64,000 bases of DNA from Halobacteria archaeon AArc-dxtr1 (GTDB taxonomy: Archaea > Halobacteriota > Halobacteria > Halobacteriales > Natrialbaceae). Where the stretch lies: positions 124,001-188,000 of the forward strand of contig JAOPJY010000002.1 of the NCBI GenBank assembly GCA_025517425.1. Direction: 5' to 3'. The translations under genes and the position numbers were made by a program. Numbering within the stretch: the first letter of the stretch is position 1; each line of letters opens with the position of its first letter. Below are positions 25,017-28,565 of the stretch, piece after piece. The notes under the pieces are model-generated. The model did no database searches and had not been told where the DNA came from. It saw only the letters and a program-made list of their open reading frames with translations.

Positions 25017-25976
25017 ATGGAGTGTACCCGGTGCGATCAGCCGGCCGTGATGCACGCCGCCTACTCGGGCGCCCACCTCTGTGAGGACCACCTCTGTGCG
25101 TCCGTCGAGAAGCGCGTGCGGCGTCGCGTCCGCCGGGACGACCTCGTGCCACGCGAGGCGACGCCGGAGAACCCACAGCGGTGGGTGATCGGGCTCTCGG
25201 GTGGGAAAGATAGCGTCGTCCTCACCCGCGTCTTACACGACACCTTCAACGAGGACCCACGCATCGAGCTGATCGGCCTGACGATTCACGAGGGGATCGA
25301 GGGGTACCGCGACAAGAGCGTCGACGCCTGCGTCGAGCTGGCAGACGACCTCGAGATTCGCCACGAACTCGTCAGCTACGCCGAGGAGTTCGGGATTCGG
25401 ATGGACGAGGTCGTCGAGGACGACCCGGAGAACATGGCCGCCTGTGCCTACTGCGGCGTCTTCCGACGAGACGTGCTCTCGCGGTACGCCGAGAAGCTAG
25501 ACGCCGACCTGTTACTGACCGGGCACAATCTGGACGACGAGGCACAAACCGCGCTGATGAACGTCTTGGAGGGCGACGTCGCCCAGATCGCGAAGCACTT
25601 CGACGCGAGCCTCGGCCCCCTCTCAGAGCGAACCGATCAGGAGGGGTTCGTTCCCCGCGCGAAACCGCTTCGGGACGTTCCTGAGAAAGAAGTCGCCCTC
25701 TACGCCCACCTCCAGGACCTGCCGGCACACATCACGGAGTGTCCTCACTCGAGTGAGGCCTACCGCGGCGAGATTCAGCAACTGTTGTACGAGTTAGAGG
25801 AGAACCACCCTGGAACGCGCCATTCGATTATTTCGGGATACGAGGAACTCGGCGGGATCGTCTCCGACCGCTATCGGGGCGAAGAGAGTGCCGATCTTCG
25901 CGACTGCGCCGAGTGCGGTGCGACGACAACTCGCGAACGCTGTCGGAAGTGTTCGTTACTCGAAGCGCTCGCGTAA
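25017..25976 (+). CDS. ncsA: NcsA/Ctu1-type tRNA thiolation ATPase
   Basis: A 319-residue PP-loop ATPase that makes 2-thiouridine at the wobble base of tRNAs with the SAMP2/Elsa sulfur relay. The N-terminal zinc finger is CTRCDQPAVMH...HLCEDHLC. The PP-loop GLSGGKDSVV is at about 61-70, active-site cysteines lie in ACAYCGVFRR, and the GHNLDDEAQTALMN block follows. A C-terminal zinc finger (CAECGATTTRERCRKC) closes the protein. It is convergent with ftsZ2, the same neighbourhood as in Haloferax volcanii, which supports orthology. The ATG at 25017 begins at the zinc finger. Confidence 0.93.
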   Translation: MECTRCDQPAVMHAAYSGAHLCEDHLCASVEKRVRRRVRRDDLVPREATPENPQRWVIGLSGGKDSVVLTRVLHDTFNEDPRIELIGLTIHEGIEGYRDKSVDACVELADDLEIRHELVSYAEEFGIRMDEVVEDDPENMAACAYCGVFRRDVLSRYAEKLDADLLLTGHNLDDEAQTALMNVLEGDVAQIAKHFDASLGPLSERTDQEGFVPRAKPLRDVPEKEVALYAHLQDLPAHITECPHSSEAYRGEIQQLLYELEENHPGTRHSIISGYEELGGIVSDRYRGEESADLRDCAECGATTTRERCRKCSLLEALA

Positions 25977-26078
25977 GACGAGCGCTGTAGCGTGTCCGTC
26001 TCTGGGGCGATCGCTCGGAAGAGTGTGACAAGCAGCCGCCGTAGAATCGTCGACGGGTCCGTCGCGGTGCCGGCGTCG

Positions 26079-27260
26079 TTATCGGATGACGTCGACGCCG
26101 TTTTCGCGCTCTACTTCGTCGCGGCCGCCATCGCTCTGTGCGCTGAAGCCGCTGTTCTCGACGTTCTGACTCGCGTCGAAGTCGGCGTCGTTGAGTCCCT
26201 CGATACTCGCACGGGACTTGTCGGCTTGCTTCTGGGTCGTCGGACCGAGCACCTGGGCGCTCTGGACGCCAGTCATGATCGCCATGACGCGCACTTTGCC
26301 CTTATACGACTCCTGAATGCGTGCACCCCAGATGACGTTCGCGGAAGCCTCTAAGCGCTCCGTGATGTTGTCGGCGATCCCCTCAGCCTCTTTGAGCGTG
26401 AGATCCGGCCCGCCAGTAATGTGGACCAGTCCGCCGGAGGCGCCGCGGTAGTCGACGTCCAGTAGCGGGTGGTTCATCGCGTCGTTGACGACTTCGGAGG
26501 TCTTGTTTTTGTCCTGTGTCTCGCCGACGAGCATCACCGCGACGCCACCCTGATTCATGATTGTGGACATGTCCGCGTAGTCCAGATTGATGAGGGAGGG
26601 TTGGGTGATCGTCTCGGAGATCCCTTTGACGGTCTCGGCGATGATCTGGTCCATCACCGAGAACGCCTTGCCGATCGGGAGATTTGGGACGTAGTCGAGC
26701 AGTCGGTTGTTGTCGAGGACGATGATCGAGTCGGCCTGCTCACGCAGTTTCTCGAGCCCTTCTTCGGCCTTGACGGTACGGGCACGCTCGACGTTAAACG
26801 GCGTCGAGACCATCCCGACGACGATTGCGCCCTGCTCTTTGGCAATCTTCGAGACGACGGGTGCCGCACCGGTACCGGTGCCGCCGCCCATACCCGCCGT
26901 AACGAAGACGAGATCGGCTTCGCCAAGGACCTCCTTGATCGTCCCCTGGGCCATCTCGGTGGCGCGCTCGCCCATCGACGGATCGCCGCCGGCGCCAAGC
27001 CCGCTCGTGAGCGATTTGCCGACGAGAATCTTCGTGTCGGCTTCGATCATCTTCAGATGCTGTTTGTCGGTGTTGATGGCGATCGTATCTGCGCCGTCGA
27101 CACCAATGTTGTACAGCCGGTTGATCGTGTTGTTCCCAGCCCCACCACAGCCGACGATCACGATTCGCGGATCGCCGAAATCCTCGTCGTCGAGCGAGGC
27201 GTCCATCTCGCGGGCCTCTTCCTCTGCGTTGTCGAGTGCCTCTTGTACGATATCTTGCAT
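26079..27260 (-). CDS. ftsZ2: Cell-division tubulin homologue FtsZ2
   Basis: A 393-residue GTPase forming the division ring. The glycine-rich tubulin signature [20 protein letters not shown], the start of the nucleotide fold [20 protein letters not shown], and the T7-loop NLDYADM needed for GTP hydrolysis are all present. The tail is acidic and disordered. FtsZ2 rather than FtsZ1 is indicated by the N-terminus [20 protein letters not shown] and by the adjacent cdrS, three bases away. In Haloferax, FtsZ2 drives constriction. Expression is probably set by the inverted-repeat array upstream of cdrS. Confidence 0.95.
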
Positions 27261-27263
27261 CAG

Positions 27264-27443
27264 TTACACCTTCGCCCAGTGGCGGTTTCCGGTGCGGTCG
27301 TTCCGTCCGGTCTGCTGTTCGTTGATCATCTCACGGACGGCCGACCGGATCGCTTCGCTCCGGTTCGGAAACTCACCCGAGTCGACGAGCTGTTCGACCT
27401 CCTCGATCTGCTGTTCTGGAATCCGCAGTGTCACACGCTCCAT
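27264..27443 (-). CDS. cdrS: CdrS, ribbon-helix-helix regulator of cell division
   Basis: A 59-residue ribbon-helix-helix protein: strand [10 protein letters not shown], then helices [11 protein letters not shown] and [15 protein letters not shown]. In haloarchaea CdrS is a short RHH regulator co-transcribed with ftsZ2 and required for normal division. Here its stop is 3 nt before the ftsZ2 start, confirming one operon. The ATG at 27443 fits the conserved strand. The spacer upstream contains three GTAAGAC inverted-repeat pairs. Because RHH dimers bind short inverted or direct repeats, CdrS itself or CdrL is the natural candidate to bind them. Confidence 0.93.
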
Positions 27444-27461
27444 GATTGTATTCCCGTTGGG

Positions 27462-27628
27462 GTAAGACGGTTGCGCCCTGTCGCGCAAACGTCTTACACC
27501 ACGAATCCACCGCCATCTGCCGTTTGTAGCGATGTTTTACGTGGTGTAAGACGATCGTCTTACGCGGTTCTATCCATGTTTTCCCCTACTAATAAGCATT
27601 TTGTAAGATGAAATACAGAATGTCTTAC
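27462..27628. promoter_or_regulatory. Array of three GTAAGAC inverted-repeat pairs before cdrS-ftsZ2
   Basis: Six copies of the heptamer GTAAGAC/GTCTTAC lie in the cdrL-cdrS spacer. Pair A: 27462-27468 and 27491-27497, extended to 15-nt arms with one mismatch around a 6-nt centre (27462-27497). Pair B: a perfect 18-bp palindrome GTAAGACGATCGTCTTAC at 27546-27563. Pair C: 27603-27609 (one mismatch, GTAAGAT) and 27622-27628. The last copy overlaps the cdrL stop codon (27625-27627). An AT-rich stretch (ctaataagca, near 27589) lies between pairs B and C. This looks like an operator array for an RHH regulator controlling cdrS-ftsZ2. Confidence 0.8.
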
Positions 27629-28179
27629 GCGTCTCCGGAGGGGCCGCGGCCCGAGTCAAGGACGTCGGCCGCCGGTGTTCGGCGACCGCAGCCCGGGCAG
27701 AACGCCCAGTCCGATCGAACTTCGTCACCGCAATCACAGAACAGTCGCTGTACCGCCTTCTGTCCGCAGTTCGGACAGTAGACGTGGTCTTCGTCGACAG
27801 TCGAACCACACTGCGCACACTGCGTGTCAGACGACGAGTCAATGGCTGGCTCCGTCTGGGGATGTTCGCGCTCCGTCTCGACGTCCCACAGTTCGGAATC
27901 AGTCTCGGAAACGCCGTCGTCGAGTGAGACCGTCACGGAGATTTCAGAAGATCGGCGGTCGGGTGAGCGACCGAGCCGTTCGGCGAGCAGTTCGTCCACT
28001 CGAGCCCGGATGAGATCGTCGACGGAACCAGTACGGGTCTGGTCGACGTCGTCGGACCGTGGTCCGCGTTCGTCGAGGAACGTGCGAAGCGCTTCACGCA
28101 TCACCTCACTTTTCGAGGCGTCGAACGCCTCCAGTTCGTCGACGAGGTCGTCGTCTGCTCGGAACGTTATCTTGCTCAT
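27625..28179 (-). CDS. cdrL: CdrL, RHH protein with C-terminal zinc ribbons
   Basis: A 184-residue protein. An N-terminal ribbon-helix-helix (SKITFRADDDLVDELEAFDA, KSEVMREALRTFLDERG) is followed by a charged linker. Two zinc-ribbon-like cysteine groups then appear (CAQCG...YCPNCG and FCDCGDE...FCPGCG, about 122-168). The name CdrL is used for the longer RHH protein encoded next to cdrS-ftsZ2 in haloarchaea, where it takes part in the division regulatory network. An AT-rich gatatagg lies about 35-42 nt upstream of the ATG at 28179 on this strand. The gene is co-directional with cdrS, with a 181-nt operator-rich spacer between them. Confidence 0.88.
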   Translation of the reverse strand: MSKITFRADDDLVDELEAFDASKSEVMREALRTFLDERGPRSDDVDQTRTGSVDDLIRARVDELLAERLGRSPDRRSSEISVTVSLDDGVSETDSELWDVETEREHPQTEPAIDSSSDTQCAQCGSTVDEDHVYCPNCGQKAVQRLFCDCGDEVRSDWAFCPGCGRRTPAADVLDSGRGPSGDA

Positions 28180-28311: not shown

Positions 28312-28385
28312 CCGCCCTTAGCTCAGACTGGTAGAGCAGTCGACTGTAGATCGACTTGCCCCCCGTTCAAATCGGGGAGGGCGGA
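28312..28385 (+). tRNA. tRNA-Tyr (anticodon GTA)
   Basis: A complete 74-nt cloverleaf without intron. Acceptor CCGCCCT (28312-28318) pairs with AGGGCGG (28378-28384), with discriminator A at 28385. The D-stem is GCTC/GAGC. The anticodon stem GTCGA/TCGAC encloses CTGTAGA with anticodon GTA at 28346-28348. The variable loop has 5 nt. The T-arm is CCCCG-TTCAAAT-CGGGG. The C1-G72 pair with A73 is the archaeal/eukaryotic tyrosine identity set. CCA is not encoded. No duplicated 3' end that would mark an integrated element was seen nearby. Confidence 0.97.
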
Positions 28386-28565
28386 CTTCTCTCCAAGTCG
28401 ATTCGTGATAGAGAAGACGAGCAACGGGTGTAGAACAGTGGTTGGAGAAGAGAACAACACCTACGACTGGCTCCGATGTATTACTCCGTATCCACGTCGA
28501 CGGGGTAGGCGTCGCAGTTGTCGACTCTTCTCGGTCGGGACCTGCCGCCTCCGATGTCGTTCAGA

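Follow-up and report, generated by a model that had tools for sequence, protein, structure and literature searches.

A candidate composite DNA operator and RNA leader module precedes cdrS-ftsZ2 across Halobacteriales

The region upstream of the cdrS-ftsZ2 operon contains a palindrome, P, for which the single copy per genome, the position, the conservation across the order Halobacteriales, the folding of the surrounding leader and the covariation of its stems were all demonstrated computationally. With moderate confidence, the region is interpreted as a composite cis-regulatory module, found throughout Halobacteriales, that combines a DNA operator with an RNA leader.

Results

Heptamer array and promoter architecture of the cdrL-cdrS spacer

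The window, which denotes the whole 64-kb stretch of DNA that was analysed, carries cdrL, cdrS and ftsZ2 on the minus strand, and these gene calls of the original prediction are correct. The features of the locus are as follows.

27625..28179, minus strand: cdrL, with an RHH N-terminus and a double zinc ribbon C-terminus
27603..27628, minus strand: U, the upstream half-site(s), which is also spacer pair 3 (GTAAGAT...GTCTTAC, one mismatch); exact GTAAGAC (sense) at 27628-27622, mismatched partner at 27603-27609
27590..27596, minus strand: TATA-like box CTTATTA, starting ~32 nt upstream of P
27546..27563, minus strand: P (GTAAGAC-N4-GTCTTAC), which is also spacer pair 2 (GTAAGACGATCGTCTTAC, a perfect 18-bp palindrome), predicted to span the first mRNA bases together with the transcription start; in the cdrS sense, P-left is 27563-27557 and P-right is 27552-27546
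27444..27566, minus strand: structured 5' leader RNA with a three-way junction, predicted by folding
27563-27556 with 27469-27462, minus strand: predicted stem P1 (P-left with D3)
27553-27540 with 27503-27490, minus strand: predicted stem P2 (P-right with D5)
27488-27483 with 27476-27471, minus strand: predicted hairpin P3, between D5 and D3
27462-27497: spacer pair 1 (GTAAGACGGTTGCGC / GCGCAAACGTCTTAC), 15-nt arms with one mismatch
27491..27497, minus strand: D5 (GTAAGAC), a leader half-site 66 nt from the P start
27462..27468, minus strand: D3 (GTCTTAC, sense), a leader half-site 18 nt before the cdrS ATG
27449..27456, minus strand: purine-rich, ribosome-site-like GGGAAUAC, just 3' of the leader junction
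27264..27443, minus strand: cdrS, encoding a 59 aa RHH regulator (NCBIfam NF058555)
26079..27260, minus strand: ftsZ2, encoding an FtsZ GTPase, the operon partner of cdrS

Direct reading of the sequence bears out the three inverted-repeat pairs that had been described in the spacer, with gaps of 22, 4 and 12 nt between the heptamers of pairs 1, 2 and 3. The predicted overlap of the last half-site with the cdrL stop codon is likewise seen: the TAA on the minus strand, at 27625-27627, lies inside this half-site. The count of six heptamers must be amended to five exact copies of GTAAGAC and one with a mismatch. In addition, the heptamer had been regarded as not obvious elsewhere in the window, which in fact holds two further exact copies, at 25230-25236 and 25973-25979. 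Over the whole window, the seven exact copies are near chance (shuffle mean 4.4), and five fall within 167 bp of the spacer, where ~0.01 would be expected from the shuffled density; the heptamer excess is therefore entirely local. Inverted pairs separated by 0-30 nt occur at two places in the 2.8-Mb genome, both in the cdrL-cdrS spacer, and the reversed control pattern at none. A tRNA-Tyr gene (window positions 28312-28386, plus strand) adjoins cdrL on the opposite strand, and other families also have a tRNA close to the cdrL-cdrS locus.

The arrangement of these elements is shared by related leaders. In 63 of 72 leaders, the TATA-like box starts at −31 to −34, counted from the P start; from this spacing, transcription of cdrS-ftsZ2 is predicted to begin at P or a few bases before it. 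For Haloferax cdrS, a 5' UTR is marked in Fig. 2 of PMC8406309. A half-site upstream of P is present in 60/72 leaders (2 expected from shuffles), and the U positions cluster at −65 (plus orientation) or −52 (minus orientation) from the P start. On the downstream side, D5 lies at +62 to +68 from the P start, D3 ends 13-24 nt before the ATG (present in 65/72 leaders versus 0.4 in shuffles) and a GGGGAAUAC-like stretch before cdrS is conserved. All four elements, U, P, D5 and D3, are exact in the Haloferax relatives L193, L200 and L201. The spacing between D5 and D3 mostly varies, from 26 to 38, unlike that of a fixed cooperative pair, and three independent operators with graded gaps were thus rejected.

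Conservation of the palindrome across Halobacteriales

For comparison of the locus, cdrS loci were collected from 60 relatives, and genomes were searched for GTAAGAC-N2-8-GTCTTAC with the reversed pattern as control. P is found exactly once in 53 of 61 relatives, including 49/49 good-quality genomes. In a wider sample of Halobacteriales (completeness of at least 90%), it is present in 288 of 293 genomes and 77 of 78 genera, never more than once per genome; since these genomes share ancestry, such frequencies are not independent. Among 157 Halobacteriota genomes from outside the order, 3 contain a match, which is not above the reversed-pattern control and corresponds to chance level. P precedes the cdrS start by 74-117 nt in every one of the 104 loci checked. 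Conservation of the heptamer in orthologous spacers had been named beforehand as a check, and it is passed overwhelmingly. Together with a CdrL ChIP-seq peak in this region (PMC7439475), these counts uphold the central claim that cdrS-ftsZ2 has a conserved regulatory array specific to this locus.

The pairs had also been read as three operators with different gaps that load cooperatively. The constant unit is instead the palindrome with a 4-nt gap, which accounts for 92/104 loci (N2-N6 in the remainder) and for 60/77 named loci. The overall interpretation is thus supported as to the conserved cdrS-ftsZ2 regulatory array and unsupported as to three simple, cooperatively loading operators. The half-sites of P are inverted and 11 bp apart, start to start, as is the spacing of RHH operators. 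Genomes that lack P mostly keep one-base or one-arm variants: among the five Halobacteriales exceptions, G158 differs at a single base, one arm reads GTCATAC in G403 and G446, and G139 retains a single arm; G405 yielded no convincing cdrS.

Two lineage-specific arrangements were observed in addition. In Haloquadratum and a relative (L109, L166, L171), direct tandem half-sites in 10-nt steps replace the palindrome ~118 nt before cdrS; in L166 and L171, the tandem reads GTATGAC-tgc-GTAAGAC-ggt-GTATGAC. In small-genome lineages, a different long hairpin follows the palindrome in the cdrS leader (GCGTGTGACACTGGGTCAAGTCACGCG in L056 and L058, with a similar one in L050).

Predicted fold of the leader RNA

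Folding was computed at 37 °C with standard parameters, not for molar KCl. The leader of this genome, taken from P-left through D3, has a folding energy of −56.4 kcal/mol (z −6.66), and the predicted junction ends just before GGGAAUAC and the ATG. Over 140 leaders, the mean folding z is −4.9, compared with −0.18 (sd 1.1) for random windows. Because four complementary heptamers would fold alone, the heptamers were held fixed while the rest of each leader was shuffled; the mean z was then −3.6, with 70/70 negative. P-left is predicted to pair with D3 in 105/105 genomes and P-right with D5 in 103/105. The 22-nt pair had been taken for a plain operator. It lies in the predicted leader, and its halves are predicted to pair preferentially with the halves of P, so this pair is probably at least partly an RNA feature. 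Local hairpins were rejected as the main fold, as the minimum folds nearly always nest. For H. salinarum, which has a mutated P, the local alternative is predicted as the minimum fold.

The heptamer pairs never vary, and no covariation can therefore come from the heptamers themselves. In contrast, the flanks between them differ by lineage and remain self-complementary. RNAalifold, applied to a 52-row alignment of all families, recovered the local P hairpin only; because the P2 interiors cannot be aligned, this approach is uninformative and was replaced by permutation of the stem halves among dissimilar leaders, a choice that also lessens the effect of kinship. For the P2 halves of 35 dissimilar leaders, complementarity within a genome beats all re-pairings (0/10,000 permutations as good), and for the halves of P3, the D hairpin, 4/10,000 permutations are as good. 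When the heptamers are excluded, the P2 interior of 40 dissimilar clusters has a mean dinucleotide z of −1.93 (control −0.19), with 38 negative. Within genera, explicit double changes are few; in Halorubrum, most changes preserve wobble pairing and double changes occur at one pair. In leaders that have lost the exact D5 heptamer, the pairing is often preserved by other bases.

The predicted fold leaves the ribosome site unsequestered, and a translational switch is therefore not obvious. Comparison with Rfam families gave no match to the leader. No conserved unpaired sequence that could form a ligand pocket was seen in it; the clamp heptamers alone are invariant. In H. salinarum, mRNA and ribosome occupancy of cdrS-ftsZ2 are reported to be uncoupled (PMC8303175), which is consistent with a function of the leader.

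CdrL as a candidate reader

By ChIP-seq in Halobacterium salinarum, the region upstream of cdrS-ftsZ2 is the only reproducible site of CdrL (Darnell 2020, PMC7439475). The presence of one P per genome agrees with this single-site result. At the H. salinarum locus (L127), U, D5 and D3 are exact and P has one mismatch. The CdrL RHH strand (MSKITFRADDDLV) is near-invariant across families, and the middle region of the protein is very variable in length. When the CdrL RHH domain was searched against the PDB, no useful match resulted.

That CdrL is the only reader of the array is contradicted by the distribution of the protein. In the 293-genome sample, 10 Halobacteriales are without a match to CdrL and G282 has only a marginal one (7e-4); six of the CdrL-less genomes were rechecked with the RHH domain alone. 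P is kept in 9 of the 10 and in G282, and the tenth, G405, is without P as well. D3 is likewise retained, in 9/9 distinct leaders without CdrL (G282 counted among the nine) and in 119/131 leaders with it. Since P and D3 are retained in complete genomes that lack CdrL, the protein alone is insufficient as an explanation and was rejected as the sole reader. Sites are thus not confined to genomes that have CdrL, and the D5 heptamer alone tracks the protein: it is exact in 113/131 leaders with CdrL versus 1/9 without, the one being G282. As proof that CdrL binds there, this correlation is weakened: D5 doubles as a pairing partner, and in CdrL-less genomes its pairing is often kept by other bases. 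The base that follows the heptamer also differs among the sites, being G in P-left (97%) and D3 (98%) and mostly A in D5 (86%) and U (70-74%). CdrL has been described as universal in sequenced Halobacteria; in contrast, it is undetectable in nine nearly complete genomes from four families (G039, G047, G060, G105, G186, G249, G351, G380 and G433).

A probable CdrS box and its relation to P

CdrS ChIP-seq in Haloferax volcanii identified 18 sites and a symmetric motif that is shown in a figure only (Liao 2021, PMC8406309). These sites lie mostly 41-110 nt upstream of the starts of other genes, such as ftsZ1, dacZ and proteasome genes; the targets include ftsZ1 and a PRC-domain gene, and the cdrS promoter is absent from the list (PMC8406309). 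From these two kinds of target gene, a probable CdrS box was derived in the present analysis. GTCWGAC-N4-GTCWGAC or near variants precede ftsZ1 in relatives, and the box is found at ftsZ1 in many genomes as well as before a PRC-domain gene (L247). The pattern occurs 0-4 times per genome, with zero matches to the control. P has the same N4 gap and 11-bp geometry with one base changed per half-site, and does not match the consensus of the box itself. This shared geometry makes CdrS a serious candidate reader of P, either as an autoregulator or together with CdrL. CdrS aligns with the RHH domains of NikR.

Further occurrences of the probable box were noted. One lies at G000:C1:987546-987563 (L227), upstream of ftsZ1. 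In many haloarchaea (also L223, L230, L233, L237 and L242), the box at ftsZ1 is ~12 nt upstream of a TATA-like GGTAATTA. In several Natrialbaceae (L225, L232, L240), a CdrS-type box with extra GTCAGAC half-sites adjoins a gene for a membrane protein. From its sequence, this protein may be an HtpX-like peptidase; its gene is a possible new CdrS target.

Discussion

The heptamers are best accounted for if they are both read as sequence and needed for pairing: their invariance calls for a reader of the letters, and the divergent, self-complementary flanks call for a fold of RNA, or at least of a single strand. We infer the exact start site, the assignment of proteins to sites, the direction of regulation and the function of the RNA fold as follows. 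At the DNA level, P would coincide with the predicted start of transcription, with U a short way before the TATA box. Dimers of the RHH protein CdrL, and plausibly of CdrS, would bind the heptamers, and an occupied P would block initiation. U, which is placed about as the probable CdrS box is at ftsZ1, could assist the block or binding at P. At the RNA level, the heptamers would clamp a three-way junction and tie the 5' end of the mRNA into an outer stem before the ribosome site, and this junction may determine how stable the division mRNA is, or how it is processed or translated. Neither layer is universal, with some lineages being without D5/D3 and some without P-right. P occurs without the D half-sites in L050, L051 and L056, and P-left with D3 outlasts P-right in the Haloquadratum-type loci (L109, L166, L171) and in L053 and L055, which suggests that the DNA and RNA layers are separable. 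Since the four segments also permit a local fold, a switch is conceivable. Tentatively, and with less probability than the composite module, the leader could be a two-state RNA switch between the nested pairing (P-left with D3 and P-right with D5) and a local one (P-left with P-right and D5 with D3), the DNA copy of the local P pair serving as the RHH operator.

Several simpler accounts were weighed against the composite module. That the heptamers cluster by chance in a GC-rich spacer is practically inconceivable: the heptamer is not rare over the whole window, but one copy per genome at one location in 288/293 genomes refutes it. It is unlikely that the region is a DNA operator array only, in which CdrL dimers on the heptamers control cdrS-ftsZ2 and RNA pairing is a by-product of the inverted repeats. 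The CdrL ChIP peak (PMC7439475), the single-copy palindrome that suits a one-site regulon, the position of U outside the leader and the co-occurrence of the D5 heptamer with CdrL all favor such an array, but operators need no lineage-divergent yet self-complementary sequences between their half-sites, and the retention of P and D3 in complete genomes without CdrL also speaks against it. The converse, in which P and D have no operator role and are stems of a structured leader recognized by an RNA-binding protein or a nuclease, is more doubtful still. The strong folding and covariation across the order, the survival of P-left::D3 after loss of the DNA palindrome and the apparent post-transcriptional regulation of the operon (PMC8303175) agree with this account. 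However, the heptamers are invariant with no compensatory change, so their letters are read; L050, L051 and L056 keep the palindrome without D; CdrL binds the region in vivo (PMC7439475); and U precedes the TATA box.

A further proposal concerns the DNA layer of the composite module, with which it is compatible as a refinement. In this proposal, P would be a variant CdrS box (C3 to A) that is conserved by CdrS itself, with CdrL added through the A-flanked D5 and U. Identical geometry with a single base difference per half-site, the position-8 G that P-left and D3 share with the surroundings of many CdrS boxes (mostly A in D5 and U), and the retention of P and D3 in genomes lacking CdrL are in its favor. 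The cdrS promoter is nevertheless not among the 18 Haloferax ChIP-seq sites (PMC8406309), and the outer GTA bases are retained exactly, with no drift to GTC. CdrS autoregulation of this kind is considered somewhat improbable.

For the control of the division tubulin level in archaea, the composite module offers a precise, single-copy target throughout the order. With it, the one-site CdrL ChIP result would gain a binding motif and CdrS a sister motif, and the uncoupling reported between cdrS-ftsZ2 mRNA and translation would have a physical basis. There are two candidate readers, CdrL and CdrS, definite bases to mutate and a predicted RNA fold that is absent from Rfam, and genetic tools exist for both Haloferax volcanii and Halobacterium salinarum. 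If the two-state switch were true, one dual-code element would join the start of transcription to the fate of the mRNA and set the supply of division protein in haloarchaea, and a structured leader would control an archaeal FtsZ across the order.

The searchable literature holds no sequence-level description of operator or RNA-clamp roles for the heptamer (subscription papers and the primary aCcr1 papers lay outside its scope), and in a search with the heptamer string, all of the matches listed looked unrelated. The closest precedent is the CdrL-bound region of H. salinarum, which involves the same genes, the same intergenic region and a genome-unique peak; no motif, palindrome, inverted repeat or leader structure is given for it in the text of PMC7439475. 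The CdrS sites of Haloferax volcanii (PMC8406309) also involve an RHH regulator and a symmetric motif, and the box derived at two targets shares the 11-bp geometry of P, but P differs from that box by one base per half-site and overlaps a predicted start. With structured 5' leaders and riboswitches, the region shares a conserved RNA of several stems immediately ahead of the ribosome site and a possible mutually exclusive fold; unlike riboswitches and Rfam leaders, it has neither an Rfam match nor a ligand-pocket sequence. Like CdrL, aCcr1 of Sulfolobales is an RHH cell-cycle regulator; the similarity of the CdrL N-terminus to its family (NF053762) is weak and below the cut-off (E 2.4e-4, 20.9 bits, cut-off 60). 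aCcr1 has several targets and controls cdvA of the ESCRT-type division machinery. The half-site of NikR, GTATGA, resembles GTAWGAC. In operators of the MetJ/Arc/NikR type, half-sites lie about one helical turn apart, as in P, a spacing that suits two side-by-side RHH dimers; unlike those operators, the element described here is also part of a predicted leader RNA, with CdrL and CdrS as its putative readers.
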